Position numbers and translations under genes: made by a program
The notes under the pieces: generated by a model
The model's input: only the letters and a program-made list of their open reading frames with translations
Databases searched by the model: none
Told to the model about the DNA's origin: nothing
Part shown: positions 16,721 through 59,735 of the stretch, one piece after another
How the letters are laid out: each line of letters begins with the position of its first letter
Numbering within the stretch: the first letter of the stretch is position 1
NCBI GenBank assembly: GCA_030068145.1
Contig: JAPJBO010000779.1
Coordinates: 43,928-107,927, forward strand
DNA from: Diplonema papillatum
Taxonomy: Eukaryota > Euglenozoa > Diplonemea > Diplonemida > Diplonemidae
DNA: 64,000 nucleotides
Direction of reading: 5' to 3'

Positions 16721-17125
16721 GACGGCGTCGATAGTCCTTGCGATAGTTCCGGTGTTTGCGGCTGATCCGGCGTTTGCGATCGACTTTCTCGCCGGGCGGG
16801 AAAAATTCAAGTTTTCCCACCCTCCCTAACCCCCCGGTGACCTCGCCCAAGCTCGTTTCCCCGGGATAAGGCAGTGCTATCAGTTACAAAGACTTGTTCT
16901 TACTTCTCCCTTTCTTCCAGGCAGTTCTCGTCAGACCATACGAAGAGCAAAAACTCCAGTGGAAAAAGTCACTTCTGGCGACAACCGCAGAAACTTCTGT
17001 CCGCTTCATGCCTGTCCCGACACGTGCAAAAAGGCGCGATTCTGGCGGTAGTCGATTCTGGCGCTGCTTCTCATGATCCGCCCAAGAAGGAAAGCGACCC
17101 GCCTCCTCCGTGCCTCGCAGCTTGC

Positions 17126-18421
17126 TCCTGCACCGCAGTCCTGCACCGCAGTCCTGCACCGCAGTCCTGCAACGCAGTCCTGCAACGCAGTCCTGCAACG
17201 CAGTCCTGCAGTGCAGTCCTGCACCGCAGTCCTGCAACGCAGTCCTGCAATGCAGTGCACCGCAGTCCTGCACCGCAGTCCTGCACCGCAGTCCTGCAAC
17301 GCAGTCCTGCAACGCAGTCCTGCACCGCAGTCCTGCACCGCAGTCCTGCAACGCAGTCCTGCAACGCAGTCCTGCAACGCAGTCCTGCAACGCAGTCCTG
17401 CAACGCAGTCCTGCAACGCAGTCCTGCAACGCAGTCCTGCAACGCAGTCCTGCAACGCAGTCCTGCACCGCAGTCCTGCACCGCAGTCCTGCACCGCAGT
17501 CCTGCACCGCAGTCCTGCACCGCAGTCCTGCACCGCAGTCCTGCACCGCAGTCCTGCACCGCAGTCCTGCACCGCAGTCCTGCACCGCAGTCCTGCACCG
17601 CAGTCCTGCACCGCAGTCCTGCACCGCAGTCCTGCACCGCAGTCCTGCACCGCAGTCCTGCACCGCAGTCCTGCACCGCAGTCCTGCACCGCAGTCCTGC
17701 ACCGCAGTCCTGCACCGCAGTCCTGCACCGCAGTCCTGCACCGCAGTCCTGCACCGCAGTCCTGCACCGCAGTCCTGCACCGCAGTCCTGCACCGCAGTC
17801 CTGCACCGCAGTCCTGCAACGCAGTCCTGCAACGCAGTCCTGCAACGCAGTCCTGCAACGCAGTCCTGCAACGCAGTCCTGCAACGCAGTCCTGCAACGC
17901 AGTCCTGCAACGCAGTCCTGCAACGCAGTCCTGCAACGCAGTCCTGCAACGCAGTCCTGCAACGCAGTCCTGCAACGCAGTCCTGCAACGCAGTCCTGCA
18001 ACGCAGTCCTGCAACGCAGTCCTGCAACGCAGTCCTGCAACGCAGTCCTGCAACGCAGTCCTGCAACGCAGTCCTGCAAAGCAGTCCTGCAACGCAGTCC
18101 TGCAACGCAGTCCTGCAACGCAGTCCTGCAACGCAGTCCTGCAACGCAGTCCTGCAACGCAGTCCTGCAACGCAGTCCTGCAACGCAGTCCTGCAACGCA
18201 GTCCTGCAACGCAGTCCTGCAACGCAGTCCTGCAACGCAGTCCTGCAACGCAGTCCTGCAACGCAGTCCTGCAACGCAGTCCTGCAACGCAGTCCTGCAA
18301 CGCAGTCCTGCAAAGCAGTCCTGCAAAGCAGTCCTGCAACGCAGTCCTGCAACGCAGTCCTGCAACGCAGTCCTGCAACGCAGTCCTGCAACGCAGTCCT
18401 GCAACGCAGTCCTGCGCCGCA
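17126..18421 (+). repeat. 13-bp minisatellite, about 100 units
   Basis: The unit is TCCTGCAMCGCAG with M = C or A. The variant with CACC dominates 17460-17815 and the variant with CAAC dominates before and after, giving a segmental structure. Because 13 is not a multiple of 3 and the unit has no stop in any frame, all three plus frames and the minus frames stay open for over 430 codons; these ORFs are not evidence of a gene. Confidence 0.95.
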
Positions 18422-19180
18422 GTCCAGTTCGGCTGAAGGGCGGTGTTCTCGCTCTGCAGGCTGCGCTTCGCAACGACATTCTAATGCACTAAACTGGCAA
18501 AGGTGATACACCCCGTGCACCCATCATGGTACTGGACCCTACAACAACATGTTTTGAGGCCGTTGCGCTACTCAAAATTCGGAAACACTTCGATGACTCG
18601 CATTTGCCGTAAAACTCTTCAAAAACGTCGACCAAATCAAACATATAACCAGGTTGCAGAGACTACCGACCAAGGCCTCATTGCTGAGTCACCGACAGTT
18701 GCTGCACTGGTGGCATCCTCTGCAACTCAGATACTTGCTGTATGCAACACAACCAGTTGCTGCATCGGCCGCATTCTCTGCACTCAGACACTCGAGAGAA
18801 GAAGGATAAAAGGAGAGAGAACCGACGAAGAGCTGCGTTTTGCCGCAAAAGGTCGCTAATCAAGGGGGCCCTTTCCCGGGAATTCGAGGAGGGGAGGGGG
18901 AAGACTTTTTCTCCGTCACCACGGGGCGCTCTTGGAAAAGAACAGTTCGCGTATGCGTAGTGCAGGAAAAAGTCCTGGAAGTCTTGCGAGAGGGGGGGGC
19001 TGGCAGGACTCCCTTTTTAGCGATAGTCGGTGTCAGATTTCTTTCGTTTGTATGTCAGTACTTGCTTTGCATTCTATGCCTTCGGTATACAATACTACGC
19101 CACTAGTACGCGTAACTATTAAAAAACTAGAAGTGCCGCTTGCACTCATTTCAAAGGAGGCTGTATACACGGTGGAGTCC
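18422..19180. other. Stretch without recognised genes
   Basis: No domain, repeat edge or conserved ORF seen. A purine-rich segment occurs at 18880-18915. Confidence 0.4.
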
Positions 19181-21979: not shown

Positions 21980-22217
21980 TGTGAAAACGGGGTTTTGCCT
22001 GGAGGCTTTTCGTGTTATTCTGCAGATGCTTTGAGCTATCTTTGTGTCTATGCTTTCAGTCGTCTTCTTAACCACGGTTAAGTGCGCAAATGGTGTCAGC
22101 CGAAGCTGGTAAAGCTTCGGCGCCGCCCCACGTTATGTTTGTTTAGCATTGAGTTCTTTTACATGGATTTGCATGCACCGCATGTTTAGCAGCGGCTGCC
22201 AAACATCCCGTGACACC
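21980..22217 (+). ncRNA. Three-way-junction element, S subfamily, with a minimal LINE tail in its loop
   Basis: Outer strand GGTGTCA (22092-22098); hairpin GCCGAAGCT/AGCTTCGGC (22099-22107, 22113-22121); constant GCC...CCCACG; apical strand ATGTTTG (22135-22141). The loop octamer GTTTAGCA is followed by about 40 bases of LINE tail, then a second GTTTAGCA (22184), GCGGCTGC, the perfectly complementary CAAACAT (22200-22206), CCCGTG and ACACC. Removing the tail restores a complete fold. The sequence continues with AAGGTGGTAAAACGC, as at 32350. Confidence 0.65.
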
Positions 22218-22571: not shown

Positions 22572-22950
22572 TGAGGTGTCATGCAAATGTAAATCTAAAG
22601 CCGCCCACGTTTAATTTTGTTAAGCATTGAGTTCTTTTAAGTACATGAACCACATGGATTAGCATGCACTGCCTTGAAAGTCAGGTTATCGGATGACGTC
22701 GTCACCTGCCATTGCGTCGTCAAGGTCGAGCATTTGTGGCGCTAGCGGGATTTGGCTTTCTTGCGATTCCAAAGACTGAGTCGGCGAGTACGAGGGCGGG
22801 CAGGAGTGCCCGTTTTCCACTTTCGAGGGCATTGGTGTGCCCGTGGTCCCGGTCGTTGTTAAGCATTGAGTTCTTTTTAAGTACATTGAACCACATGGAT
22901 TAGCATGCACATTGTTACGCAGCGGCTGCCAAAACTTGCCGTGACACCTG
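22572..22950. mobile_element. LINE copy L3 (240 bp) plus a minimal tail nested in a J-type hairpin
   Basis: Left half of a J element (GGTGTCA to TTAATTTTG) ends at 22619. LINE 3' fragment 22619-22857 encodes only the last about 50 residues, ending DDAMAGDDVIR. A second bare tail follows from GTTAAGCA at 22858, then the right half (GTTACGCAGCGGCTGCC, CAAAACTT, GCCGTGACACC) at 22914-22950. Left and right stem strands still pair with one mismatch. Confidence 0.8.
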
Positions 22951-31223: not shown

Positions 31224-34200
31224 CTGTCGGCGGAGTTTTTAGCGTTATTTGTGGATTAGAAGGTCGGTATCTTAAAGTCTCCGGTTGACCGTAGAGGCTT
31301 GAGTATGGCGGGGGGTTGAGAAAAGTGAGAGGGTGCACCTCGTTTCGGGTGTTGTGTCACTCCGTTGTGAAACCTTGTGAAGTCCCCTAACGCGTTTAGG
31401 GGGTGCTTTTTAGAGTAAAGTTCGCTTGAAATTCCGGGGTTTTACGGTCTCCGTGCGACCGTTCATGAATGGGTTCTCTTAGAGCAAGAAAGGGCTATGT
31501 GGTTACGGGTTGTATATTTAGTGCACGCTTTCGTTATGGGTTATGGCTAGCCATGTCCGGGACTGTTTGTGACCGACACCAAGTACATTCCTTCGTGGAG
31601 TGTAGTCTTGGGCCCCCCACGTTCTACAAGTTGAGCAGGGGTTGCCTTGTAGCTCGTACCGGTCTGTTGTCCGCGTTTATATGTATTTTCTCGCAGTGTG
31701 GTGTTTGGGTTTCGCGGCACTTGCGGTGCTTCACGTGGTGCGGGTTGGTTCCGCCCTAAAATAAGGTTTCTTTTGGAGTTTGGGGTTCGGGCAAAAAGAA
31801 AAGGTCAGCGCTACCGCGCTGACCTTTTCTTTTTGTATAAGCACCTGCTTTGTAGGAAATGCTTGAGGAGAGACTGCCAGTTGCGATAGATCAAAGGAGG
31901 TAAACGTGCTGTAGCCCACACGAAACACAGGTAAATCTGGGTTTAGTGGCGGGCGTAAGCGTTCAACGAAAAAGACCCACTTTGTAGTTGTATTGTTTTC
32001 TCCCCTTTTTTTTTTTCCCCCCCTCTAGCCTCCTTCGAAATGAGCACAAGGCAGTCCCTCGAGTATTTTTGAGGGTATCCGGGTGACCTTTGATAAATAC
32101 AATACAAACACAATCTGAGTTGTTCTTCGCTTACACCACCGTGTGTTGTTTTCTCACTCAGGACTTTGACCTGTTGTGTTTGTGTGATTTGTCGTGTTGG
32201 GGTATGTTTGTTTAGCATTGAGTTCTTTTGAGTACATGAACCACAATGTTTAGCATAGAGTTCTTTAAACTTGTTTAGCAGTGTGAACTTGAAATGCAGG
32301 TACCACAGGGGGCAAGCTTGCATTGTTTAGCAGCGGCTGCCAAACATCCCGTGCCACCGCGCAAGGTGGTAAAACGCTCTTTTGTTTTCTTTTCGATTGC
32401 TTTTGATGGGGCATGCAGACCTGATATGCAGGAATGGAAAAGAGACGGGGGGGGAAAGGAAAAGGTTTGTGCCCTCGTAGCTCGCCGGGCGAGCGCTAGG
32501 CCGCCAACACATACCGACAGTGCAGCTCTTTTCGAAGCGGGCTTCGAGTTGGTGAGCGAAGCGGATGGCGGCCATCATGTGGCGGGGGGTGCGCTTGGTG
32601 GTGTTCCAAAAGACAGTGATCGTGCCGCCGACGACGGAGCTGACCATGCCGTCCGTGCTAGACGCGGCGTCGATGACCGCCGGGATGACGAGGCAGATCT
32701 GCTCGTCGTCGCTGGAGAAGTCGGTTAAGATGGCGACGGTTGCTTCGACGGTGCTGAGTTGCAGGCCGGTCTTCTTGTTCACCTGCACCCTGTCCCCATC
32801 GGAACTGCAGGTGGACGGCAAAGCGAGGATGATGGGCGTCGAACTCGCCATTCCGACTCTGTAGGCCAGCTGCTGAGGGCAGAACGTGGTTAGCTTGTAC
32901 CCGGATCCAAGCCCTTTGATGTCTTGCTCCCCCATTTCTATGACAATCGGGTTGCCCAAGTCCGACAGCGCGCCTTTGACGCGGTCCGCCAGCTCTTCCG
33001 TCAAGCACAGGGTCCCGCCGGTCGCCTTGCCTTCTACCCTCGACGCGAGGTTGACCACGGTCCCACGGTAGTCGACCCGCCCAGTCAGCGGGTTGTGCTC
33101 TGCCACAGCCTGCCCGCAGTGAATGCCGATCCGCACTATCAGCCCGTCCTCCAGCTCCAGCCCCGCCGGCCAGTCTTGCCTCGCAAGCTCGAGCTGTATC
33201 TCAAGCCCGGCTTTCACCGCATCCTGCACGTCTTGGAAAGATATCATGAACGAGTCGCCTGTGGTTTTTTTTTTTCTCTTTTGGAATGAAGGTACCAGGG
33301 AAAGCCAGCTACACGGGAGCCACGCCTTTACGTGTTCGGCGGTACTGCAGAGCCACGGGCTTACAGGTCAAGTGGCTACCGATTTCCCAAACTAAAAACT
33401 AAAGCATCAAGGCTTGGCGCACCTTGGGGCTTGGCGCTCCCCGGCTCTACTTTTCACGGTTCTCTTCATCGGAGCTCGTCGCGATCAGAAAGCCTTCAGA
33501 AAAGGTCTGCTAGCGGACCAAGAAAAAAATCAACTCTTTTCCAGATTTCCAAAATGCCTCTTCTATTCAAGGTACCTCGTGTATTCGACCCTCCCTAGTA
33601 AGTCATTGGAAGCACAAAAGTGTGAGAGGGGTTGGTCCCTCCCAGAAGCCCCCCGGAAACAGTGAAACCAGTACAAAACCGAGGTGCGACCAGAACTGCC
33701 GAACTTGCTCTGGGCTTGAAGCAGTGCGTAGGTCAACGTTCTCGATCAACTCTGGAGGCATTTGGAAGATTGGGCGTCAATATTTCGGTTTGAGCCACTT
33801 GTGGCACACAAGAATATGAGGGTGGTCTCAGCCGTTCCCCGAGATTTTTAGTGCGGCGCTTTTCTTTGTTCGTGCGCTAGCGGAACTCACCTGCTTTGGT
33901 AACATGTAGTACGCTGCCAACTACCAATTATTAGTACCAACAATGCATTGTTAGACTGTTTCTTGCAGTAAGTGGTCGGTTTTTTGAAGTCTCCGTTTGA
34001 CTTGTGAGGCGGGGGAGGGGGGGTTTTCCTTTTGTGCTGTTAGAGCAGGGTCTGGGCAGTGTGTTTTCATTCCTTTACGTATACATAGTTGGCAAGCAAA
34101 GCTGACTTTGCTTACATTTGCTTAGGAGATTTGCTTCGGATTACGAGCAAATAAAAGCAAATTTAGGAAAAGAAAAACAAATTTAAGCAAATTTAAGCAA

Positions 34201-37200
34201 AGTAGGCATCATGCACTAGGGGTTTTGACAACTGAGGAAGCGTGCAACGAAGGCAGGAAAAGGCCTGCGGAAACGGAGCCGGGACTGTGTTGCACGATAG
34301 CCGTGCAGGGCGACAATAATGGTGCCGTTGAAGAAAAGCCTCGCAATGCTCAACCATTCGTACCGTGTTCCCGGAACAGAAGGAGAAGGACGATCGAAAC
34401 CCCCAACATGACACCAGAAAAGCTGAGGAACGACTCCATGTGATCAAGGTTCTGACTCTCGCAGACCTTGCGTCTATGAGGGCAGGGGGCGTTTGACACG
34501 AACAAGGGCACTCGTTCCTCGACAGTCCGGTGGGTCATGTTCAAGGAACAGGGGCAGCAGATGCATAACAACGAGGTGGGAACATGGCCGGTCTCAACAA
34601 GAGGCCACACCAAACCAGCAGGCGTTCGAAGTCGATGTGCACGCCATACAAGAGCAGACGGCACGTAAGGCCAGCAACAAGGTGCGAGCCGTACCGCAGG
34701 CAGGGCTCCGCAAAGCTGCGACACTGAACGGCAGGCAGGTTTCGTCCTACCCGTAGGCCCGGTGGAAGCAAGGAGTCAGGCAAGAGAGAAGAACCGCAGA
34801 ATGAGCGCAGGGACGCTGGGCCGTGCTGTTGAAAGAAATAGTTCACACCGACACGGGCAACCCAAGGACAGCCGAACAGCCCTTCAGGCAGGGAACAGCC
34901 TACGGCGGTGAAGTAACGAACCTCATCCGAGTGTCGGATGAAACCCCTTGCTACCACGACTGAAACACACATGTACAATGCCGGACGCTAGCGTCTGTCA
35001 AGAGCATGCGTGACACAGCCGTGTCTTGAAGGTGAGATGGGACCACAAAGAGACCAAGGGAAATTAAAATACCGACCTTCTAATCCACGAATAGAGTTGG
35101 AAAGAGCAGAGAGAGCAACCGGAGACTGCGGCGAACCGGGAGGTAAGGCAAACGGTTCGAAAAACGACGCTGGGGACGAAACAGCATAGATGACGCATTG
35201 GTGGTTGTTCGTGGTTTGCGCGACAATATGACTCTACTCAAGGGACTTAAGGTACAAAGGGAATGGGATTGTGGTCCACTATTTCGACCACGCGCTGAAC
35301 ATTGGACGAAAGGGGTACTTCCCTGCTTGTTTCTTCTTAAATCGGCAGGAATGGTGAATCCAGCGTTGCATGCGGGCACTGTTCTTCATAACGAATGGGA
35401 CATTCTGAAGCAAATCTGAAGCAAATCGACTTTGCTTTTTCGGGGGTCACCAACTTTGCTTAAATTTGCTTTGCTTGCCAACGGTATGGTATAGTGTCGC
35501 TTTTACTTTACTGTTTACTGTCACATTGTTAACTCTAAGAAACAGTGAACCCGGTGAAGCGCCAAGGCACGAACCTTGATCGTGTGGTATCAATGATGTC
35601 ATGAACGTTGCAAATGCACACCGATCGTCTTGACTTCGTACCCGCGGAACTTGGAGTACGCCTCGCGGATGGCGTCGTTGTGCAGGTCCATTGCTGCGTT
35701 CATGTCTGTAGCGGATTTGTCCCACAGCTTCGTCGATCCCTTGATGTCGCTGAACAAGATCGCGATGTCGCCCGTCGGCGGCTCCTGAATGTGGCCGTCG
35801 TGCAGCAGGCCGGCGGGCACGTACGCCTTGTACTCCCCCAAGCGGGCGACCATCTCGTTGAAGTTGTACTGCATGCAGCGGATTTCGTACAGGTAGCTCT
35901 TGGTCTGCACGATCCCACCGGCGAGGTCCATGGTCGCGCCGTACTCTTCCATCTGTCCCTGGATGCGCAGAAGGGGGGTGACGATGTACGTGGCGGCGGC
36001 GTAGGCGACGAGGATGATGATGACAACGAGGCCACATTGGATCCCGTAGGAGACGTTGCGCGCCTCCTTGTCTCGCGCGTCGTTATCCGCCACGATCACG
36101 TCGACTCCAGCCATCGTCGCAGCTCGCTTCCCGGCGACATGTGCGAGGATCGGCTCGTACTGCAGGGAGACGACGACCCACCAGTCAAGGCCGCTGTCCA
36201 TCGAAATCCGCTTCACGACCGCGAGGTCGGTCGCGAACACGTCGCCGTGGCTGTGCTCCAAGACGACAAACGGCTGCGCAGCGGCCACCGCGTAGCCGCC
36301 CAAATCGTGGATCCCCATTGCGATCATGCTGATGCTGGGATTCGACGCGTTAACATCAGCCACGAGCTTCAGGTCGGCGCCGGCGCCTTCGTAAACGCCT
36401 CCGATCGAGACGCCTGCGTTCAGTTGGGGGCAAAATGGTACACCTGAGCGCAGCGTGAGTTCCGACCAGTAGTAGGAGTTTTACATAAGCGCCAGCTTGA
36501 CAGGAAACGCTCGACGATGCTGCCCGACAAAGAACAGAAGGGATCCCAAGTGCTGTTCCTACCGAACTACGTGTTGAACGGACGTGAGGTCATGCGGGTC
36601 TACCCCTACACGACAAATCACACAAACACAACAGATCAAAGTCCTGAGTGAGAAAGCAACACACGGTGGTGTAAGCGAAGAACAAATCAGATTGTGTTTG
36701 TAATGTATTTGCCCCTTACCCCTTTATTTCCTCCCTTCCATTCGGAGTCGAAGCAGCTACGTCGAGTATTTTCAGCTTAGTGTGAGTTTGATCAAAGTAA
36801 CATCAAGGCAGCCCTTGCAAAGACCCGCCACAGTCACCGCCGCGTGTTTTGATATTAATCATCATGTTTCAAACCCCCGATTGCGCGTAACCTGGAAGCA
36901 CCCAGAGGGTGTCGGTGGTACAAAGGTGCAGTTGCCCGCATCCATGCGGCAGTCAGGCTCGCATCGGGGAGGTGACGCTACCCACCTGGACAAGGTGTCG
37001 TGCTGCCCCTAGTAGTTTGAACTTGATACGCAGCAACAATCTGTGACGACAGACTGCACAAGTGCTAGTAGTTTTTCAGCTTTGTGCGAACGTATCAGGT
37101 AGACTTTGGCGGACACTTGCCGGCATAGCGGAGAACCCCCCCTCCCCCACCTTTATATTTTTTGACGGACAGATGACGGCATAATATGTGTTCAACACCG

Positions 37201-38635: not shown

Positions 38636-39022
38636 TGCGTAGTTTTAGGGTTAAAGTTCGCTTGAAACTCCGGGGTTTTAGGGTCTCCGTGTGACCGTTC
38701 ATGAATGGGTTCGCATAGAGCAAGAAAGGGCTATATGATTACGGTTTTGTTTTATTCTAGCGTTTATTGTGGTTTAGAGGTTCGGTGTTTTAGGGTCTCC
38801 GGTTGACCATTGAGGCTGTGAGGCGGGTGGTATGAGGGTAGTAGGTATGCTTATAAGTAGTAGGTATGCTTATACACTTTAACTACGGCTAGCCATGTTT
38901 GTAAGTGTTGCGACCGACACCAAGAAGAAATTCGCTTTGAATTTAGCCTTGGGCCCCCCACGCGCATGCATGTTGAGCAGGGGTTGCCATGCAGCTCGTA
39001 TCGGTCTGTAATATGCGTTCTT
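38636..39022 (+). ncRNA. D-family repeat, second intact three-way-junction element
   Basis: Same outer stem (GACCG/CGGTC) and CCAAG/CTTGG as 31405-31768, but the inner stem is AAATTC/GAATTT and the apical stem TGCATG/CATGCA, so several base pairs differ on both strands while pairing is retained. Loop TTGAGCAGGGGTTGC is identical. Unoccupied. Confidence 0.65.
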
Positions 39023-39270: not shown

Positions 39271-39334
39271 ACTCACTGTTGAGGTGGCATTCAGATGTAA
39301 ATCTAAAGCCGCCCACGTCAAATTTTGTTAAGCA
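39271..39334 (+). ncRNA. Three-way-junction element, J subfamily, left half, occupied by LINE L4
   Basis: GGTGGCA, then TTCAGAT-GTAA-ATCTAAA, GCCGCCCACG and AAATTTTG up to GTTAAGCA (39327). The matching right half, CAAAACTT and GCCGTGACACC, lies about 4.9 kb away at 44221-44240. Confidence 0.6.
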
Positions 39335-42300
39335 TTGAGTTCTTTGAAGTACATGAACCACGTGGATTAACATGCACTGCCTTGAAAGTCAGGTTATCGG
39401 ATGACGTCGTCACCTGCCATTGCGTCGTCAAGGTCGAGCATTTGTGGAGCTAGCGGGGTTTGGCTTTCTTGCGATTCCAGAGACTGAGTCGGCGAGTACG
39501 AGGGCGGGCACGTGTGCCCGTTTTTCACTTTCGAGGGCATTGGCGTGCCCGTGGTCCCCGGTCGTTTCTGAGAGCTGCTTGCCCTCGGAACCTTCTTCTT
39601 CCTTCGATGCACCCCTGAGTCGGGGGTGGTCGCCTTCGTCTTCTTCCGCTTGCGGCCGGCGATCGGGCCTTCCTTCGGGGTGCCAAGCACCCTCTTCTTC
39701 AGCGCTGGTCGTTCGCTGGTTCCTGGCGTTGGTGGCGGCCTCTTGGTCGCCCGTCCGGTCGTCGCCGTCTCCTTTTTCGTTGCCGCGAGCGGCGCTCGCG
39801 CCGCTCGCTTTCCTACTGGCGTCTCCCGTTGTACGCCCACCTGGGTGGGTGAGGAGGGCCTCTTCTTCTTGTTGCGTCCGGGGGTTGACTGGACGTTCGG
39901 CTTGTTGGACTGGTGGTGGCCGCGGCTGCAACATGCCGCCGGTCGCCTCTGCGTCAGCGTAGGGAGCCTTTTGCACTCTTGGCAGGTTCCTCTGCCATGC
40001 GTGCGGCAGGCATGATGCCCGCTGCGGCAACACGCCGCCGCCGTCTTGCACTCGCCGCACTTCGTCGTGCTGTGCTCTGTGCACACCGCGATCGGCTGCC
40101 CATCGTTCGCGTGGTGATGGTGCCGGCAGCACATCTCTACCGTGGGAACGTCCCTTCGGACGAGTGCTCTGCACGCCTCACACTTCCCTTTGTGATGGGT
40201 CGCGCACGTGACGAGTGCCTTCTCTATACCGACACCCGGCATATGCACGGGGTCTGGGTGCAGTTGTGGTGGGGCAGGCAGGGCCCACCTCGCCGCTCTC
40301 CCGATCGTCCAGTCAGGGTACGTCGGGCACTGCGTCCCTACATCGCTTCCTTTCACTTGTTCCTCAAGTATCGTCCCCGTGTGTGCCTCGCGAAAGCGTG
40401 GCCTGGGCCGTATACCCGATATCCCCGTGATGCCCATGAACGACAGCGACGTCGTCGGGCACACCCTCTCTCCTCTCATGCAGCTTCCCAGCCCTTGCTG
40501 TGCCGCCAGCTTGTCCAACGCGCTCATCATGCAGCGCAGGACGTTTCCCCGTTCTCTCACCCCCTTCGGCGCATTCCCGTGCAGCGGCATGCTGAGGCCC
40601 GAGAAGAGTTCAAAGTCGATCGCAAGCTCCAGCATTGACGCCTGCCCGTTCTCGGTCCATTGCATGTCCGACAGCCACGCTACCAACGCATAAAACGTCG
40701 GTAGTCCCCAGGTCTTGTTCCGCTCCCACGTCCATGCCGGGGCAATCCGCGCGAAGGGGTGGTCAAATTTCTCGGCAGGCATCGCATTCGCTCTCGACCA
40801 GGGGGTCGTGGGGTTCCTGGCCACCCAGCCACGTGCTTCGAGCCCAGCCCGTTCCGCAAGGATTTCAGCCATCATCTCCTGGAGCCGCCTCGAGAATTGG
40901 GCATTCTCGGGTACTACCACACCGTGTTCCAGCGTGCATCTGGGCCAGTCGGCCCGGTTGGCTGCCATCAGCTCGGCATGTGCCTCTCGTCGCCGTATGT
41001 GCGAGTACGCTCCGCAGTCCCAGAATACGTGTTTCTCGTCCTCGGTGTCGCCGCTTCCACAGTGCTTGCAGCTGGGCGCCTGCGGCTCAGCTCCGGCCTG
41101 CCTCATCCGCGACGTGTACTCAGCCGTGTTCACCCCCCCCGCCAACGCTACACGTATAAGCCTCGCGGTGTGCGCGGGACATTCACGCATCCTCCAGAAG
41201 GTGTTCGTCCGCTCCAGGTCGGCTCTCTGTATGCCCTCAAATCCCGGCCGCCTCGCCACCAGTCGGGACCACGTCTTCGCCCTCAAGTCCGCCCTAACTT
41301 CATGTCCCCTCTTCGAAGGTGCCGAGGCTAACGGGTCATATGTTGCACCATTCCTCAGCGTGCGAGACAGGGGCCCGGGTCCCCATACGTGTCCACACTC
41401 CTCCATGCTCCTCATCGCCAGTCCAACTGGCCCCAGGGGTAGGTCCCCCTCGGCGTATCTTCCCCGGATGCTCTCCATCAGAGGCAGCAGTCGTGGCAAC
41501 CTCTCGCACGCCGCGTAAAACGCTGTCGTCACCCTATATGCTAGGCATGTACCGGGATCCGTCAGGTGGCCCTTCTCCTGAAAGTTTAGGACCATCTCCC
41601 TCGCGCGCTTCGGGTTGGATCCACCCCAGATCAGTCCCATCACCGACGTCGTCAGCCGTTTCATCGCCACCTTCGATACCGGCGCGAAAGAGCAGCCTGA
41701 CAGCGCCGCCGGTAGCACATTCGACTGCACAATCCGGACCCGCTTTTCGTACCGGAACGGCGCATGGCGGAGGCCTTCCGCCAGGGCAGCCGCCTTCTCC
41801 ACCCTCTCCGAGTCGGACCTTTCCGTCCTATTCTTCGCCGTCGAGACTAGGACCCCGAGGCACTTGACGGATTTGCTAAACCGCAGCAGCGCATCCACGC
41901 TGCGGAGTTTGAGAGTCGACTGATGCCTACGTCTCGTCGAGAACGCGACCGTCTTCTGGAGGTTTAGCTCCATCCCGGTGAGTGTGCAGAACTCGTCTAC
42001 TACGTCCACTCCCTTTTGCAGGGCGGCCTCCGACAGCCTGGACAGCAGTGTGGCGTCGTCCGCGTATGACTTTGGACTCACACCCTCCGCTTCTTTCTTG
42101 ACCGCTTTCATCACTACCGACAGCAGGGCATTGATGAGTATGACGGATACAGGGCACCCTTGAAGGATACCGTTGGTCACACTGAACTCCCTGCCCACCC
42201 CTAATGGTAGCTTGAAGCGTCTCGCGAGCAGTCTGTAGATAGCCCTCAGCGGCTTGAGAACCCGATTGTGCAATCCTAAGTCCTCGGCTAAGCGCAGTAC

Positions 42301-44114
42301 TATCTCTCGTGGGACCATGTCGAAGCATTTCCGGAAGTCCAGCGCCACACCGTAGAGCGGCTCCCCGTCTAACAAGGCGTCCTCCATCTCGAGCCCAATT
42401 TCCATCAAGACGTCCTCGATCCGGTGACCTGGTCGAAAGCCTTTCTGTCCTTCTTCGATCCATTCCTCTTGCCACAGTACTATGTCCGCCAGCCTGCGGC
42501 AGGCCCATAGGCGGTACACGGCGGATGTGACGGTTATCGGTCTTGTGTGCAGCGGGTCTTGACTCTCATCCTTCGGCACCATCGACACCAGCGCAGTTGT
42601 CATGCTTGCCGGCCAGTCTCCAGTTGCTTCGACCAGGTTCATGACGTCCGCAAGTGCATTCAGCAGGGGGAGCGGCAACTCCCGCAGTTCAGCCATACGC
42701 CAGCCATCCACCCCTGACGCGCTTTTCTTCGGCTTCTTCCTCAGCAGAATTCGTAGCTCCTCCCCCGTGATTGTTCCGGCTTCCATCATATGTGGGCCGA
42801 TGTGATCCCGGAACCGATCCCGAAACGGCTCGTACTCCGGCTCTGGCCCGTCCTTGTACTTACGCAGGATAGGGTCCCACGCAGTGTTCAGCACCTCGTC
42901 CATCTCGTCAACATTTGCAGTCACTCCCGCCCCCTTTCGCAACACCCCCGACGGCTCAGCGCGTCCGGCGCAGATGGTTGTCAGACATCGTCTGCTCGCA
43001 TCGGCCCTCTCGTTCAGCTTGTCTCGGTATTTCGTAAACCTGGCCGCCGATCCTTCCTTTCCGAGCCTGCTCGTCTCTTCCCGCAATGCCGTGAGAAGCT
43101 GCTTCGCCTCCTCATGATCCGGGAATCCTTCTGTCCCTTGGCCATCTTTCATGCACGCCTGTGCCAGCCGCCTGCTGTTCTGCCAGCAACGGGATACCTC
43201 ATGCGGAACTGCCTCCGGCCCGCGCCGTTGCGCAAGGTAGCTGCAGATGCGTTCCATCCTGTGGATGGCCTTCCGGAGCCGTAGCTGTCTGCTGTTCGCC
43301 GCCCCCGACCCGTCGCTCGCAGTGCTTGCCGTGATGCAGACTCTTTTAGGTGACGTCTTTATCCCCCGGCCGGTACTTCTTCCCCTTTCTTCCGCAGGGA
43401 TTCCGAAGGCATCCTGCAAGTACTGCTCACTGACTCGTGACCACTCGAGCCAGGCCTCTTCCACTCGCTGTGCTGCCAGCCGTTCTGCGAAATCGGAGTT
43501 GGCCAGTCTCTGTACGGCTTCCCTGTAAGCTTCTGTGTCCGAGAGGCCCCACTTGGGTCCCCCCTCCGTAGAGATTTCCCGCGGTACTTTAAATCGCCAC
43601 ACGATTTGGCGCAGCGCCGCAATGTCCAGGGTCATTGTCACGAGCCGGTGTCCCGGCACGTTCACCGCGGTGGTGACGCATTGGCGGAAAGCTCCCGTCG
43701 TTATTCGGTTGAGGAGTATGCGGTCGATCCTCGTGCCCGATGTCCGGGCGCTGGTAAAGGTCGGTGGTGGTGGTGTGTCACCGGTACGCGCATGGTGCAG
43801 TTCCGCTGCGTCGGACCACCCATTCCTTAGTGCCTTCCGCAGTACAGGGGACCGGTCTTCTTCTGTGTTCAGGTCACCCACCACCATTATGGGGACGTCA
43901 CCGAGGCTATCCGCCGCTGCGAAGAGGATCTTCTCCAGCATGTCCTCACGCTCCTCGCTCTCCGCCCTCCCGTTTCCGGAAGGGCAGTAGACATTGAACA
44001 CGTGCACGAACGTGTTGCCGGCCCCTGTTGCTACTACCGTATGGCTCACTCGGTCCAGGGACCGTATTGCTGCGTGCGAGAGCGCCGTCATCGTATCGTA
44101 CGCCGGTATCGGTT
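39327..44114 (-). mobile_element. LINE copy L4, longest copy (4.8 kb)
   Basis: Non-LTR retrotransposon inserted at GTTAAGCA. The 3' tail carries no poly(A); it ends in the about 45-bp sequence that terminates TGCTTAAC. The 5' border (44114) falls inside the endonuclease domain and is followed by two further minimal tails (44115, 44159), so even this copy is 5'-truncated. All eight LINE fragments in the window share this strand. Confidence 0.9.
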
Positions 44115-44116
44115 TT
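39394..44116 (-). CDS. LINE polyprotein: endonuclease (partial), reverse transcriptase, zinc fingers
   Basis: One open frame of about 1570 codons. Residues 1-180: C-terminal part of an apurinic-like endonuclease (VVGDLN, TRIDRILLN, GHRLV); the N-terminal catalytic Glu region is missing. Reverse transcriptase about 500-720 with GFRPGHR, ALDFRKCFD, GILQGCPVS and SYADD. A CCHC-type finger CKHCG...HVFWDC near 1020. C-terminus (about 1300-1400): repeated CxxC, CC and HH clusters such as CTEHSTTKCGECKTAAACC, then a basic, proline-rich tail ending DDVIR. The first ATG lies in the flanking tail sequence, so the true start is lost. It acts by nicking target DNA and copying its RNA there. No RNase H domain seen. 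Confidence 0.9.
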
Positions 44117-44240
44117 TTAAGCATTGAGTTATTTTAAGCACATGAACCACATGGATTTGTTAAGCAGTGAGTTCTTTTGAGTACATGCATACTATACAAA
44201 TATTGTTAAGCAGCGGCTGCCAAAACTTGCCGTGACACCT
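44115..44240. mobile_element. Two minimal LINE tails and right half of J-type hairpin
   Basis: TTTTTAAGCA (44111-44120) and GTTAAGCA (44159) each start a bare LINE tail; GTTAAGCAGCGGCTGCC at 44205 resumes the target. With L4 this makes three insertions in one loop. Confidence 0.75.
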
Positions 44241-44473: not shown

Positions 44474-44527
44474 GGTGTCACCTGAGGGGGTAATCTCAGG
44501 GCTGCCCACGTGATAAGCCGTTAAGCA
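44474..44527 (+). ncRNA. Three-way-junction element, T subfamily, left half, occupied by LINE L5
   Basis: GGTGTCA (44474-44480), hairpin CCTGAG/CTCAGG (44481-44486, 44495-44500), GCTGCC, CACG, then GATAAGCCG (44512-44520). The right half at 48297-48315 (CGGCTTATC, CCGTGACACC) is the exact complement of the apical and outer strands although 3.7 kb of LINE separates them. Confidence 0.65.
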
Positions 44528-47500
44528 TTGAGTTCTTTTAAGTACATGAACCACATGGATTAGCATGCACTGTGTCGCCGCTTAAGGTTACTTTATGACG
44601 TCGTCACCTGTCATTGCGTCGTCAAGGTCGAGTACTTGTGGCGCCAGGGGCGCTGGGCTTTCTTGCGGTTCTGGAGATTGCGCGGAGGGGCACAGGTGCG
44701 GACAATCTTGCACGTTTTTCACTCTCGAGGGCACTGGAGTGCTTGGGGACGTCGAACGTTTCTGGTAGCTGTTTGCTTTAAGGGCCATCCTCTTCCTTCG
44801 TTGCACCCCTGACTCGGGTGTGGTCGCCTTCGCCTTCTTCCGCTTGCGGCCGGCGATCGGGCTCTCCTTCGGGGTGCCGAGCACCCTCTTTTTCAACGCT
44901 GGTCGTTCGCCGGTGCCTGGCGTTGGTGGCGGCCTCTTGGCTGCCCGTCCGGTCGTCGCCGTCTTCTGCTTCGCTACGGCGGGCGGCGCCTGCGCCGCGC
45001 GCTTTCCCGCCGGCGTTTCACGTTGTACGCCCCCCTGGGTGGGTGAGAGGGGTCTCTTCTTTTTGCTGTGTCCGGGGGTTGCCGGGGCGTTAGGTTCGTT
45101 TGGTTGGTGGTGGCCGCGGCGGCAGCACGCTGCCGGTCTCCTCTGCGTCAACGTAGGGAGCCTCCTGCATTCTTGGCAGGTTCCTCTGCCATGCGTGCGG
45201 CAGGCATGATGCCCGCTGCGGCAGCACGCCGCCGCCGTCTTGCACTCGCCGCACTTCGTCGTGCTGTGCTCCACGCACACGGCGATCGGCTGCCCATCGT
45301 CAGCGTGGTGATGGTGCCGACAGCACATCTCTACCGTGGGTACGTCCCTTCGGACGAGTGCTCGGCACGCCTCACACTTCCCCTTGTGGTGGGTCGCGCA
45401 GGTGACGAGTGCTTTCTCTACTCCGACACCCGGCATATGCACGGGGTCGGGGTGCAGCTGTGGTGGGACAGGCAGGGCCCACCTCGCCGCTCTCTCGGCC
45501 GTCCAGTCCGGGTACGTCGGGCACTGCGTCCCTATATCGCTTCCCTTCACCTGCTCTTCGAGGATCGTCCCCGTGTGTGCCTCGCGAAAGCGGGGCCTGG
45601 GCCGCACCCCCGATATCCCCGTGATGCCCATGAACGACAGCGACGTCGTCGGGCATACTCTCTCGCCTCTCTCGCAACTCCCCAGCCCTTGCTGTGTCGC
45701 CAGCTTGTCCAACGCGCTGATCATGCAGCGCAGGACGTTTCCTCGCTCCCTCACCCCCTTCGGTGTATTCTCGTGCAGCGGTATGCTGAGGCCTGAAAAG
45801 AGTTCAAAGTCGATGGCAAGCTCTAGCATTGACGCCTGCCCGTTCTCGGTCCACTCCATGTCTGATAGCCACGCTACCAACGCATAAAACGTCGGTAGTC
45901 CCCAGGCCTTGTTCCGCTCCCACGCCCATGCCGGGGCAATCCGCGCAAAGGGGTGGTCGAGCTTCTTGGCAGGCATCGCATCCGCTCTCGACCAGGGGGT
46001 CGTGGGGTTCCTGGCTACCCAGCCTCGTGCTTCGAGCCCTGCCCGTTCCGCTAGGATTTCAGCCATCATCTCCTGGAGCCGCCTTGAGAAGTGGGCATTC
46101 TCGGGTACTACCACTCCGTGTTCCAGCGTGCATCTGGGCCAGTCGGCGCGGTTGGCCGCCATCAGCCCGGCATGTGCCTCTCGTCGCCGTATGTGCGAGT
46201 ACGCTCCGCAGTCCCAAAATACGTGTTTCTCGTCCTCGGTATCGCCGCTTCCACAGTGCTTGCAGCTGGGCGCCTGCGGCTCAGCTCCGGCCTGCCTCAT
46301 CCGCGACGTGAACTCAGCCGTGTTCACTCCTCCCGCCAACGCTACACGTATAAGCCTCGCGGTGTGCGCGGGACATTCTCGCATCTTCCAGAAGGAGTTC
46401 GTCCGCTCCAGGTCAGCCCTCTGCACACCCTCGAATCCCGGCCGCCTCGCTACTAGACGGGACCACGTCTTCGCCCTCAAATCCGCCCTCACCTCATGCC
46501 CCCTCTTCGAGGGTGTCGAGGCTATCGGGTCAAACATTGTACCATTCCTCAGCGTGCGAGACAGGGGCCCTGGTCCCCATACGTGTCCACACTCCTCCAT
46601 GCTCCTCATCGCCAGCCCAACTGGCCCCAGGGGTAGGTCCCCCTCGGCGTACCTTCCCCGGATGCTCTCCATCAGAGGCAGAAGTCGTGGCAACCTCTCG
46701 CACGCCGCGTAGAACGCCGTCGTCACCCTATATGCTAGGCATGTACTGGGGTCCGTCAGGTGGCCCTTCTCCTGAAAATTTAGGACCATCTCCCTCGAGC
46801 GCTTTGGGTTGGACCCACCCCAGATCAGTCCCATCACCGACGTCGTCAGCCGTTTCATTGCCACCTTCGACACCGGCGCGAAAGAGCAGCCTGACAGCGC
46901 CGCCGGTAGCACATTCGACTGTACAATTCGGACCCGCTTCTCGTACCGGAACGGCGCATGGCGGAGGCCTTCCGCCAGGGCAGCCGCCTTCTCCACCCTC
47001 TCCGAGTCGGACCTTTCTGTCCTATTCTTCGCCGTCGAGACTAGGACCCCCAGGCACGTGACAGATTTGCCAAACCGCAGCAGCGCATCCACGCTGCGGA
47101 GTCTGAGCGTCGACTGATGCCTACGTCTCGTCGAGAAGGCGACCGTTTTCTGGAGGTTTAGCTCCATTCCGGTGAGCGTGCAGAACTCGTCTACTACGTC
47201 CACCCCCTTTTGCAGGGCGGCCTCCGACAGCCTGGATAGCAGCGTGGCATCGTCTGCGTACGACTTTGGGCTCACCCCCTCCGCTTCTTTCTTGACCGCC
47301 TTCATCACTACCGACAGCAGGGCATTGATGAGGATGACGGACACAGGGCACCCTTGAAGGATACCATTGGTCACACTAAACTCCCTGCCCACCCCTAGAG
47401 GCAGCTTGAAGCGTCTCGCGAGCAGTCTGTAGATCGCCCTCAGCGGCTTGAGAACCCGATTGTGCAACCCTAAGTCACCGGCCAGGCGCAGCACTATCTC

Positions 47501-48238
47501 TCGCGGGACCATGTCGAAACATTTCCGGAAGTCCAGCGCCACCCCGTAGAGCGGCTCTCCATCTAGCAAGGCGTCCTCCATCTCGAGCCCTATCTCCATC
47601 AGGACGTCCTCGATACGGTGACCCGGTCGAAAGCCCTTCTGTCCTTCTTCGATCCACTTCTCCTGCCACAGGACTATGTCCGCAAGCCTGCGGCACGCCC
47701 ATAGGCGGTACACAGCGGACGTGACGGTTATTGGCCTCGTGTGCAGCGGGTTTTGGCTCTCATCCTTCGGCACCATCGACACCAGGGCAGTTGTCATGCT
47801 CGCCGGCCAAACCCCAGTCACTTCGACCAGGTTCATGACATCCGCTAGCGCATTCAGCAGGGGAAGCGGCAACTCCCGCAGTTCAGCCATGCGCCAGCCA
47901 TCCACGCCTGACGCGCTTCTCTTCGGCTTCTTCCTTAGCAGAGTCCGCAGCTCCTCCCCCGTGATCGTTCCGGGTTCCATCAAGTGTGTGTCGATGTGCT
48001 CCTGGAACCGATCCCGAAACGGACCGTACTCCGGCTCTGGCCGGTCCTTGTACTTACGCAGGATAGCGTCCCACGCAGTGTGCAACACCTCGTCCATCTC
48101 GTCCACATTTGCAGTCATCTTCGCTCCGGTGCGCAACATTCCCGACGGCTCAGCGCGACCGGCGCAGACGGTCGCTAGACATCGTCTGCTCGCGTCAGCC
48201 CTCTCGTTCAGCTTGTCTCGGTACTTCGTAAACCTACC
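44520..48238 (-). mobile_element. LINE copy L5 (3.7 kb)
   Basis: Second long copy of the same family. GTTAAGCA at both borders (44520 and 48239). The 5' border lies in the linker before the reverse transcriptase. It differs from L4 by scattered substitutions, mostly at third positions in the catalytic region, and more freely in the C-terminal basic tail. Confidence 0.9.
44588..48238 (-). CDS. LINE polyprotein, endonuclease missing: reverse transcriptase and zinc fingers
   Basis: Open for about 1215 codons without a stop, from a linker segment (RFTKYRDKLNERADASRRC) through the reverse transcriptase (LDFRKCFDMVPRE, YADD near 47256) and the CKHCGSGD finger to DDAMTGDDVIK. Intact despite 5' truncation, so the insertion is probably young. 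It could not mobilise itself without the endonuclease. The Cys/His block near the C-terminus is as well kept as in L4. Confidence 0.9.
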   Translation of the reverse strand, partial: GRFTKYRDKLNERADASRRCLATVCAGRAEPSGMLRTGAKMTANVDEMDEVLHTAWDAILRKYKDRPEPEYGPFRDRFQEHIDTHLMEPGTITGEELRTLLRKKPKRSASGVDGWRMAELRELPLPLLNALADVMNLVEVTGVWPASMTTALVSMVPKDESQNPLHTRPITVTSAVYRLWACRRLADIVLWQEKWIEEGQKGFRPGHRIEDVLMEIGLEMEDALLDGEPLYGVALDFRKCFDMVPREIVLRLAGDLGLHNRVLKPLRAIYRLLARRFKLPLGVGREFSVTNGILQGCPVSVILINALLSVVMKAVKKEAEGVSPKSYADDATLLSRLSEAALQKGVDVVDEFCTLTGMELNLQKTVAFSTRRRHQSTLRLRSVDALLRFGKSVTCLGVLVSTAKNRTERSDSERVEKAAALAEGLRHAPFRYEKRVRIVQSNVLPAALSGCSFAPVSKVAMKRLTTSVMGLIWGGSNPKRSREMVLNFQEKGHLTDPSTCLAYRVTTAFYAACERLPRLLPLMESIRGRYAEGDLPLGPVGLAMRSMEECGHVWGPGPLSRTLRNGTMFDPIASTPSKRGHEVRADLRAKTWSRLVARRPGFEGVQRADLERTNSFWKMRECPAHTARLIRVALAGGVNTAEFTSRMRQAGAEPQAPSCKHCGSGDTEDEKHVFWDCGAYSHIRRREAHAGLMAANRADWPRCTLEHGVVVPENAHFSRRLQEMMAEILAERAGLEARGWVARNPTTPWSRADAMPAKKLDHPFARIAPAWAWERNKAWGLPTFYALVAWLSDMEWTENGQASMLELAIDFELFSGLSIPLHENTPKGVRERGNVLRCMISALDKLATQQGLGSCERGERVCPTTSLSFMGITGISGVRPRPRFREAHTGTILEEQVKGSDIGTQCPTYPDWTAERAARWALPVPPQLHPDPVHMPGVGVEKALVTCATHHKGKCEACRALVRRDVPTVEMCCRHHHHADDGQPIAVCVEHSTTKCGECKTAAACCRSGHHACRTHGRGTCQECRRLPTLTQRRPAACCRRGHHQPNEPNAPATPGHSKKKRPLSPTQGGVQRETPAGKRAAQAPPAVAKQKTATTGRAAKRPPPTPGTGERPALKKRVLGTPKESPIAGRKRKKAKATTPESGVQRRKRMALKANSYQKRSTSPSTPVPSRVKNVQDCPHLCPSAQSPEPQESPAPLAPQVLDLDDAMTGDDVIK

Positions 48239-48320
48239 GTTAAGCATTGAGTTCTTTTAAGTACATGAACCACGTGGATTAGCATGCACCGGCTGCCGGC
48301 TTATCCCGTGACACCTTTTA
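48239..48320. mobile_element. Minimal LINE tail and right half of T-type hairpin
   Basis: Bare tail 48239-48290 ends GCATGCAC and runs directly into CGGCTGC, CGGCTTATC and CCGTGACACC; here the octamer between tail and target is not duplicated, unlike other sites. Confidence 0.7.
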
Positions 48321-48894: not shown

Positions 48895-49757
48895 TGTGTC
48901 GAGGCCGCCCAGTGCTTTTTAGAGTTATAGTTCGCTTGAAATTCCGGGGTTTTAGGGTCTCCGTGTGACCGTTCATGAATGGGTTAGAGCAAGAAAGGGC
49001 TATGTGGTTACGGGTTGTATATTTAGTGCACGCTTTCGTTATGGGTTATGGCTAGCCATGTCCGGGACTGTTTGTGACCGACACCAAGTGCATTCCTTCG
49101 TGGAGTGTAGTCTTGGGCCCCCCACGTTCTACAAGTTGAGCATTGAGTTCTTTAAGGTGCAAGTGCCATCAAGGCAGGCGAGCACTGTTCACGGGCTAGT
49201 GTTACTTTATGACGTCGTCCGTCGGGAGAGTCAACGATGATGAGGATGTGGTCAAACTAGTCATTTCCAAGTCAAGTTCAATTCCCGCTCGCTTTCGCGG
49301 TGCGGACTTTCCGGGCCGGTTTGGCTGTTTCCGGGTCGACGATGGGGAAGAAGTCAGGCATTCCATTTCGTGATCGAGCGTAGAGTTGTTCACGGCCTGC
49401 CGCGATCGCTTCGATCTTCGTGGCTTCCCTGAGCTTCGAGGACTCCTGCAGGGGTCGCTTCCGCCTCCTTCTGGGAGGCGCGTCTTTGGGCTCGCCGGTT
49501 GGCGTGCGCGGAAAGGGTTGTTTGTATGGGGATGATGTTCCCCGTTGATGACGTCTTGGGCGACGGTGATGATGACGGTGATGAAGGCGGGGAGGTTGGT
49601 GAGCTGGTGAGGTAGTTGAGCAGGGGTTGCCTTGTAGCCCGTACCGGTCTGTTGTCCGCGTTTATATGTATTTCATCGCAGAGTGGTGCTTGGGTTTCGC
49701 GACACTTGCGGTGCTTCACGTGGTGCGGGTTGTTTCCGCCCTAATATAAGGTTTTTT
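48895..49757 (+). repeat. D-family repeat split by LINE L6
   Basis: 48895-49134 and 49615-49757 join to the same sequence as 31405-31768. The join restores stem CTACAAG/CTTGTAG and loop TTGAGCAGGGGTTGC, giving direct before/after evidence of insertion in the loop. Confidence 0.85.
49135..49614 (-). mobile_element. LINE copy L6 (480 bp, diverged family member)
   Basis: Flanked by AGTTGAGCA at 49134-49142 and 49614-49622. Encodes, with one break, a serine/proline-rich, acidic C-terminal tail (49202-49612) ending LTLPTDDVIK, the same terminal signature as L5 with a different body. The 3' tail keeps only AAAGAACTCAATGC. It is therefore a related LINE family using the same target. Confidence 0.8.
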
Positions 49758-50261: not shown

Positions 50262-50475
50262 GCTAAATATAAAGTGGTGTCACCTGAGGGGGTGATCTCA
50301 GGACCGCCCACGTGAAAAGCCGTTAAGCATTCCGCTAAGCAGTGTGAACTTGAAATGCAGGTACCACAGAGGGTAAATTGCATGCCGTTAAGCATTGAGT
50401 TGTTTTGAGTACATGAACCACATGGATTAGCATGCACTCGTTAAGCAGCGGCTGCCGGCTTATCCCGTGACACCT
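50262..50475. ncRNA. Three-way-junction element, T subfamily, with three stacked insertions
   Basis: GGTGTCA, CCTGAG/CTCAGG, accGCC, CACG and GAAAAGCCG lead to GTTAAGCA (50322). Then GCTAAGCAGTGTGAAC, a LINE tail at 50387, and the right half at 50440 (GTTAAGCAGCGGCTGC, CGGCTTATC, CCGTGACACC). Apical strands pair with one mismatch. Confidence 0.65.
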
Positions 50476-56559: not shown

Positions 56560-56948
56560 TCGAAACTGCAGGAAGGCGGCTGCGAATGGGAAGAAGCCAT
56601 ACTGCACCCCTGGCATCGTCAAGTACCGCCGACATGACTCCGGTCGTCAGCTTCTCAACGGATTCCTTGGTCGTTGGGGCGAAGGGTACTCTCGCCAGCA
56701 CGGCTGGGAGGATCGCGGATTGTACTAAGAGCACTCTGCTCGGTTGCGGAATCGGGACGTGACGTAGGTTGTGGGCGGTGCTGGTGGCGGTCTCGAGCCT
56801 GGCCGTGTCGTTGTGGTCGCGCCCCTTCCGTGAGGTGCTCGGTTTGGCCCCAAGGCATTTTAGCGCTGTCGCCTGGGGAAACCTCCTCCCCGTGCTCCGG
56901 AGCTGAAGTCGCGACACGTAATCACGGACGGTCGTGAACACCGCTCGT
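56560..56948 (-). mobile_element. LINE fragment L7, distinct family
   Basis: Encodes the segment just after the reverse-transcriptase core: NLRHVPIPQPSRVLLVQSAI, LPAVLARVPFAP, VEKLTTGVMSAV, homologous but not close to LRHAPFRYEKRVRIVQSNVL and LTTSVMGLIW of L4. Its 5' border meets GTTGAGCAGGGGTTGCC (56949), the right half of a D-type hairpin, so a second LINE family may use the same octamer. The 3' end is not defined. Confidence 0.65.
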
Positions 56949-57313
56949 GTTGAGCAGGGGTTGCCATGTAGCCCGTACCGGTCTAAGCCTTCATTGTAGC
57001 TTCCATAAGTACCCGGGTCCGACGGTCCGTTAGTCATCAGCGACACCGGGCGGGAAAAAGTAAATAAAAAGAAAGGGGAAAAATGGGGGTGTGGGTGGAT
57101 AAGCTCGTGGTAGGTTGTTCGGAAATAAGTACAACCTCAAACTACGCCTAGCACAGGGCCAGGCGGCATATACGTGCCTTCATCCTCTCATGTTAGTGTG
57201 CGTTCACTCGTACAGACACTTCGAGTTTTTCCCGTTAGTCAGGGTAAACGGGTGCGGAGTGAAACATAGACCAGCCAGCAATCAAGAACCCGATGAGGCT
57301 CAAACGACGTGGA

Positions 57314-59111: not shown

Positions 59112-59735
59112 GGCAGATGAAAGAGACTGGTGTTCACTGGAAAGTGGTCGTAGCTTCGTCTCGAGCTGCAAGCGAACCGCGTCGAGGAGACGATGTGGCT
59201 TAGCGGAGTTCCACAAGGCTGTGACCGTGCTGCCGACGACGGAGCTGATGCTGCCCTCGGTGGTCGCGGCGCCGTCCATTGCGACGGCGAGGATGAAGCT
59301 CACAGTCTCGACCGCCCACGACGTGTACTGCGGGTGCTCCTTCACGACCGCCACCAAGAACGTGTACTGCGGGTGCTCCTTCACGACCGCCACCAAGAGC
59401 GTGTACTGCGGGTACTCCTTCACGACCGCCACCAAGAACGTGTACTGCGGGTACTCCTTCACGACCGCCACCAAGAACGTGTACTGCGGGTACTCCTTCA
59501 CGACCGCCACCAAGAACGTGTACTGCGGGTACTCCTTCACGACCGCCACCAAGAACGTGTACTGCGGGTGCTCCTTCACGACCGCCACCAAGAACGTGTA
59601 CTGCGGGTGCTCCTTCACGACCGCCACCAAGAACGTGTACTGCGGGTGCTCCTTCACGACCGCCACCAAGACAGCTGTGCCGTTGGACCTCCAGAACGGT
59701 GGGTTTCCACGAGAACACGAGCCATTTTTACTCAG
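59112..59735 (-). CDS. Second cyclase-like gene, exon homologous to the end of exon 3, with coding minisatellite
   Basis: The C-terminal part TTEGSISSVVGSTVTALWNS matches STDGMVSSVVGGTITVFWNT of the first gene. Upstream the beta-strand segment VAVVKEHPQYTFL is repeated nine times in frame by a 39-base repeat (59322-59672), four or five units carrying Tyr in place of His. The 5' side is cut by the TA-flanked transposon at 59748, and no catalytic domain is found upstream, so this copy is probably inactive. Donor position uncertain, perhaps TTTCCA/GTGAAC near 59132. Confidence 0.6.
59322..59672 (+). repeat. 39-bp in-frame minisatellite, nine units
   Basis: Units start CGTGTACTGCGGGTGCTCC every 39 bases exactly. 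Length is a multiple of three, so copy-number change does not break the frame. Confidence 0.95.

Follow-up and report, generated by a model that had tools for sequence, protein, structure and literature searches.

A conserved pseudoknotted RNA fold near the 3' end of several non-LTR retrotransposon families in Diplonema papillatum

What is the structured element that lies dispersed over this region of the Diplonema papillatum genome, and to what does it belong? In the 64,000-nt stretch analysed here (referred to as the window) the initial annotation described four repeat subfamilies sharing one architecture, composed of an outer stem, hairpin A, CCCACG, an apical stem, the loop TTNAGCAGNGGNTGC, CGTG or CGTA and the outer-stem partner, and proposed that they represent a new structured RNA family. 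All four places are present in the window, the second copy starting one base later (38912-39006) than the 38911 given originally, and the architecture was correctly described. The proposal was right in that the element is a structured RNA; it forms a module within retrotransposon RNA, however, and is not an RNA gene in its own right. Similarly, the subfamilies are distinct groups, but what distinguishes them is that they are different retrotransposon families; further families carrying the fold were found in the genome outside the window. The 'tail' that had been removed from 22092-22217 and the gap between 44520 and 48291 are retrotransposon insertions in the loop after TTNAGCA. The copies and associated features in the window are as follows.

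31571..31664, minus strand: E1, family A1, complete three-way junction with pseudoknot
31613..31658, minus strand: core of E1 as used in alignment A3 (P2, P3, loop GCARCCSCTGCTNAA, P2', pseudoknot partner)
31543..31554, strand-neutral: perfect palindrome ATGGCTAGCCAT on the sense 3' side of E1, 16 nt from P1
31407..31415, minus strand: constant sense 3' terminus of the family A1 copy, TTTTTAGAG in plus-strand letters
38912..39006, minus strand: E2, family A2, complete
22092..22217, minus strand: E5, family D, with a short retrotransposon tail breaking up its loop and TTTAGCA present at both 22142 and 22185
22149-22191: the tail in the E5 loop, second TTTAGCA included
44474..44527, minus strand: E7, family B, first half, loop interrupted after TTAAGCA
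48290..48315, minus strand: second half of E7, beyond the inserted LINE
44588..48256, minus strand: ORF of the LINE in the E7 loop, RVT_1
50276..50474, minus strand: E8, family B, loop interrupted by two kinds of short tail
39283..39334, minus strand: E11, family C, first half, to TTAAGCA
44206..44239, minus strand: second half of E11, beyond the inserted LINE
39394..44133, minus strand: ORF (1579 aa) of the LINE in the E11 loop, Exo_endo_phos and RVT_1
22575..22626, minus strand: E10, family C, first half
22915..22948, minus strand: second half of E10
49076..49142, minus strand: another family A1 element, first half, interrupted after TTGAGCA
49616..49649, minus strand: second half of the same family A1 element
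56950..56983, minus strand: E4, family A with A4-like flank, second half only, abutted by a third LINE fragment (56624-56941)

Read in sense direction, i.e. on the minus strand of the window, the order of the parts is P1, P2 (YACG/CGUG), P3, the loop GCARCCSCUGCUNAA, P2', GSGG, hairpin A and P1', with a P1-P2 linker of 0-1 nt. P1' is followed by a spacer of 2-16 nt, in most families by a palindromic stem, and then by the 3' end. Hairpin A is of variable length and was assessed by eye alone. The initial annotation overlooked a pseudoknot, formed by CCCC or GCCGC just 5' of CCACG and, in the loop, by GGGG or GCGGC, the partners in the sense RNA being the loop CCSC and the GSGG located after P2'. 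This CCSC/GSGG pairing covaries, too.

The eukaryotic assembly that we searched (271.4 Mb, 2910 contigs) contains 2,089 exact matches to the core pattern (1091 and 998 on the two strands), while the reversed-pattern control gave 0 and 0; the loop alone matched 5,472 times (2744 and 2728; control 12, i.e. 4 and 8). When the 94 bases of E1 were used as query in the first search, 40 of 1679 candidates were scored, one at 100% and 39 at 99% identity. Because the 20 copies fetched for comparison were picked for differing cores, they are not a random sample. Eleven of them, together with E1 and E2, make up the 13 rows of alignment A2; six were left out as near-copies of rows already used (L036, L037, L039, L040, L047 and L048) and three because part of the fold is deleted (L043, L045 and L046). 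The core alignment (A3) has twelve sequences covering seven lettered families, L030 (family A5) being omitted because it has no P2 strand.

In the core alignment 88.6% of 193 cells were paired, compared with 35.9-53.3% when the partners were slid, a control that allows for relatedness but is biased towards a structure which, like this one, was derived from the very sequences tested. Two-sided changes were found in 37 cells vs. 14.5 in shuffles, and the covariation score was 0.430 against a shuffled mean of 0.154, a value matched by none of 500 shuffles, which ignore the relatedness of the sequences. The number of pairs with two-sided change (8) and the number of further pair types (17) did not rise above the shuffles, 218 and 276 of 500 reaching them, respectively. 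Some P3 cells of families F, G, G2 and H were scored as broken because a bulge puts them out of register. The pseudoknot was 100% paired; one of its four pairs varies, being G-C in seven rows and C-G in five. In the outer stem (13 sequences) all 63 cells were paired, four of five pairs had changed on both sides, and the covariation score of 0.810 (shuffled 0.295) was not reached in any of 500 shuffles, with two-sided-change pairs and further pair types again not above the shuffles (336 and 479 of 500). It must be noted that the constancy of the loop and of CCCACG is partly imposed, since the search pattern fixed both; P1, P3 and the varying pseudoknot pair were unconstrained by it. These 12- and 13-sequence alignments bear out the covariation between subfamilies that had been seen in the window, and covariation with pairing kept supports selection on RNA structure. 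Simple shared ancestry of inverted repeats, named at the outset as a possible refutation, is insufficient because the stems differ between families and the pairing is retained.

The functional RNA strand is the minus strand of the window. Allowing bulges in P3, the minus-strand reading gives 242 Watson-Crick pairs, 10 G-U pairs and no A-C pair, whereas a plus-strand reading turns all ten non-Watson-Crick pairs into A-C. The bulge step in P3 favours pairs, thus a cleaner count comes from the helices kept in fixed register (P1, P2 and the pseudoknot), where seven G-U pairs but no A-C pair were found. There is one counter-case, the split copy E7, in which one pair (GCTGC facing GCGGC) favours the plus strand. 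With the E limit set at 10, a covariance model gave 15 matches in the window, all of them on the minus strand and several being weak or incomplete; the E1 core scored 59.8 bits, E1 being one of the model's own sequences.

What carries the fold became clear from alignments of the families. In A1, A3, B, F, G and H the left end (sense 3') is constant and the right end varies from copy to copy, which, read on the minus strand, corresponds to a fixed 3' end with 5' truncation. The constant left ends are TTTTTAGAG in A1, GAAATGGTAATCG in F, GGGGGGAAAAT in G and H, and a G-run followed by CGTTGT in A3 and A4. Target-site duplications of variable length were counted in four of 28 copies, where words of the left end recur downstream over 38, 32, 15 and 14 nt (L002, L057, L058 and L068, respectively; shuffled maxima 8-11). 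None was counted in the other 24, which include L006 and L054, whose left end was misplaced by the script. Words of 9 nt in L053 and L066, one above the shuffled maximum, were not counted, nor were longer words in L056, L062 and L063, where the left end itself simply occurs again; for L066 the alignment shows, by eye, a duplication of about 13 nt. With their constant 3' end, variable 5' truncation and, in 4 of 28, long duplications, the copies look like products of target-primed reverse transcription. The fold lies about 25-240 nt from the 3' end across families. Since family B ends about 25 nt past it, the fold falls within the minimal 3' region there.

Two full-length family A1 copies were found.

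C28:505300-507500: full-length A1 copy L076
C36:499300-500900: full-length A1 copy L077

They share a common 5' end about 1.8-2.0 kb upstream and showed no target-site duplication. Both encode a UCH/USP-type protease domain (PF00443, E 2.9e-12 and 2.6e-9), followed in L076 by CxxC motifs. No reverse transcriptase (RT) was seen in these two copies, the only full-length ones among those examined, and no RT ORF was found upstream of the fold; conversely, no fold was seen by eye after the ORFs of the window LINE and the L011 LINE, where these were read. A protease of UCH type and no RT in the full-length copies mean that A1 is best read as non-autonomous, in which case another RT would have to recognise its RNA. 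LINEs with Ulp1-type proteases are already in print and OTU-type proteases also occur in LINEs; we know of no LINE with a protease of USP type.

Covariation, strand and the retrotransposon-like copies together identify the fold as a conserved module, a three-way junction with a pseudoknot, which several non-LTR retrotransposon families carry close to the 3' end of their RNA. The dispersed copies are insertion footprints, which need have no function in place. A free-standing RNA gene, a Pol III SINE head (A- and B-box look-alikes were noticed by eye) and an intron structure had also been considered, and were dropped because the family alignments show retrotransposon ends. The non-canonical introns of diplonemids were rejected on the strength of the D. 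papillatum genome paper, in whose account introns are mostly GT-AG and Euglena-like ones were not detected (PMC10161547). Five exact pattern matches in viral contigs were taken as chance, as the covariance model gives only loop fragments of 9.5-17.5 bits there, and window positions 31400-31790 had no match in plasmids. A literature search by title or abstract, with supplements and most subscription papers outside its scope, returned no published description of the fold.

The sense 3' side of the fold has a further feature. A palindrome with arms of 5-8 lies 2-16 nt beyond P1 in seven of eight representatives (A1 and A3 counted apart; A2, A4 and A5 excluded from the count). Family B is the one without it, and the palindrome of A4 is imperfect. 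The summed arms on the 3' side were 49 vs. a shuffled mean of 25.4 and a maximum of 33 in 2000 shuffles, those on the 5' side 28, which is not significant (p 0.21). The order pseudoknot, linker and stem near the 3' end is that of R2 elements. The descriptions of A-clade R2 3' UTRs of birds and turtles report a pseudoknot-hinge-stem that is kept despite sequence divergence and needed for target-primed reverse transcription (PMC12222951, PMC12180492); insertion fell markedly when the pseudoknot was broken and recovered with compensatory changes (PMC12180492). The likeness, as far as these accounts describe the R2 signal, is one of arrangement and extends to the keeping of structure through sequence divergence. 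Unlike R2, the diplonemid fold has an added three-way junction with hairpin A and a palindromic stem; and, unlike the terminal R2 signal, it lies at some distance from the 3' end, and no RT was found with it. Stringent-type LINEs and their SINEs also share 3'-end stem-loops, which are hairpins in the cases described (PMC3747384). Compensatory stem changes and a conserved loop are common to these and to the diplonemid fold, which differs from the described hairpins in being a pseudoknotted junction.

The loop is also a target. Two different retrotransposon tails insert exactly in it, and, besides the LINE with Exo_endo_phos and RVT_1 domains in the family C element E11, a family B element houses another LINE. 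An exact search with 25 nt from the 3' end of the loop LINE gave 2629 copies in the genome, 2174 (83%) of which directly follow TTNAGCA; a shorter LINE-junction pattern gave 3951 matches (control 0). The second tail, GTGTGAACTTGAAATGC, was found 351 times after TTNAGCA (control 0), only cases preceded by this motif being counted; its copy at 32274 in the window has TTTAGCA on both sides. Among the matches listed, 54 of 56 LINE junctions on contigs C1-C5 were on the same strand as the nearest loop. SLACS is one of the LINEs with a specific target. Others described as such belong to the R1 and Tx1 clades, with APE endonuclease, or are NeSL and Utopia elements with restriction-like endonuclease (PMC4640811). 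The window LINE, with its Exo_endo_phos domain, is of the APE type found in R1 and Tx1. As with the target-specific LINEs, one sequence of a multicopy family is hit, and transposons are among the targets listed for them (PMC4640811). The target differs from the known ones in that it is the loop of a conserved RNA fold common to several retrotransposon families.

What does the fold do? We consider it probable, with about two chances in three, that it is a docking structure for reverse transcriptase: by binding the fold the RT would choose its template and begin cDNA synthesis, in the way described for the R2 pseudoknot-hinge-stem. Several observations weigh against this role: no RT ORF was found upstream of the fold, its distance from the 3' end contrasts with the terminal R2 signal, no duplication was counted in 24 of 28 copies or seen in the two full-length A1 copies, and the palindrome is missing in family B and imperfect in A4. 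The fold might instead serve another step in the life of the retrotransposon RNA, such as stability, export, translation or the pairing of two RNA copies. The variable distance to the 3' end and the family-specific palindromes, which could pair two RNAs, would fit such a role, but family B keeps only about 25 nt between fold and 3' end and the order of pseudoknot, spacer and stem matches the R2 template signal, so we regard this as rather unlikely. A more elaborate version of the docking idea is that a common RT-docking knot combined with a palindrome of each family's own (CTAG, TCGA, CATG and CCGG centres) leads to homotypic RNA dimers before insertion, while second-tier LINEs parasitise the docking loop, where they could live because the loop sequence cannot drift. 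We offer this as a speculation that is a little less probable still.

The remaining explanations are much weaker. Compact pseudoknotted folds recall self-cleaving ribozymes, and retrotransposons do carry these: HDV-like ribozymes sit at the 5' ends of R2 and L1Tc. By our own comparison, the minus-strand helix order, with its one pseudoknot, would be that of a P1-type twister (P1-P2-P4, with a pseudoknot from the end loop) with an extra hairpin. In twister the cleavage site lies in the linker between P1 and P2, and the diplonemid fold, with its linker of 0-1 nt, has no such cleavage-site linker; it also lies near the 3' end. The remark in the initial annotation that the element matches no known RNA class agreed with a comparison with Rfam 15, which showed no family for the fold, no hit in it being at or near a gathering threshold. 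No ribozyme family, twister included, was matched in the region of E1 (E limit 10) or in five further loci (E limit 5), in which three weak hits fell elsewhere than in the fold. A ribozyme is therefore very improbable. The same low probability applies to a DNA-level feature, a cruciform or a protein site; adjoining perfect palindromes and a LINE target in the loop would suit it, but the G-U pairs, which are seen on one strand only, speak against it. A multicopy small RNA gene family invaded by site-specific LINEs, as happens in SL RNA, U2 or rRNA genes, seems to us the least likely of all: such genes are frequent targets and there are many near-identical copies here, but they form part of longer retrotransposon copies truncated at the 5' end, and flanking sequence differs from one lettered family to another.

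Among the first 100 loop places listed, 82 of 94 neighbouring pairs were on the same strand (binomial p 2.8e-14 if strands were independent). The element sense agreed with the strand of host genes on 10 of 10 contigs on which both were known, i.e. where a host ORF gave a clear Pfam match and the direction of the elements was established; on C2 below 606 kb, one of the 13 loops listed was on the other strand. The direction was taken from the fold itself on C1, C2, C4, C8, C9, C14 and the window's contig (C779), and from LINE junctions in the loop on C10, C12 and C13; distances between element and gene ranged from less than 1 kb (window) to about 85 kb (C10). Weak Pfam hits (TPR, EF-hand, ATG17 and three spurious ones in L026), the UCH hit of L025, which may be element-encoded, transposon ORFs in L011, L014, L070 and L072, and L024 and L028, which had no established element direction, were left out.

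Several other features of the region were recorded. The genome paper puts the size at about 280 Mb and the repeat content at 52%, and describes about 3600 pieces of 28S scattered over the genome as well as many genes of retrotransposons (PMC10161547); the window contains one 28S rRNA fragment (62453-62579; Rfam LSU_rRNA_eukarya, 64.7 bits). It also has a 13-base repeat array (17012-18500, 97 overlapping 300-nt copies) that is open in several frames on both strands, and a 39-base tandem repeat (59234-59749) open on both strands. Exons of a guanylate/adenylate cyclase were found on the minus strand (32327-33367 and 35599-36480). Judged by eye, the end of a family D copy is located some 25 nt within a putative 5' splice site of one intron; L001:2404 goes with this observation. 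A second hairpin, in which the loop TCGTAGCTCGC is constant and the stem varies, occurs on the sense 5' side of the knot in several families, in the window at 5995, 16464, 23021, 44311 and 50542. Its sequence CCCTCGTAGCTCGCNGGG has 1116 exact copies in the genome (control 0), and among the matches listed on C1-C5, 12 of 21 were accompanied, at no more than 200 nt, by a knot loop on the expected side and the same strand, and none by one on the wrong side or opposite strand. A 23-nt piece of the Diplonema spliced leader has 604 exact copies (323 and 281 by strand; control 0). This is more than the 110 SL genes given in the genome paper (PMC10161547). Three of the copies (C1:52853, C7:503434 and C8:578645) lie 14-35 nt from a LINE junction, suggesting that these are retrocopies of trans-spliced RNAs.

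If the docking interpretation is true, many retrotransposon families of this diplonemid would have in common a covariation-supported template signal, in which the stems changed freely while pseudoknot and loop stayed. The fold provides a defined RNA for tests of RT recognition outside animals and helps to sort the repeat half of the genome. The agreement between element sense and gene strand could be used to examine whether polycistronic transcription is linked to insertion or to selection. In this organism a conserved RNA signal doubles as the DNA address of other mobile elements.
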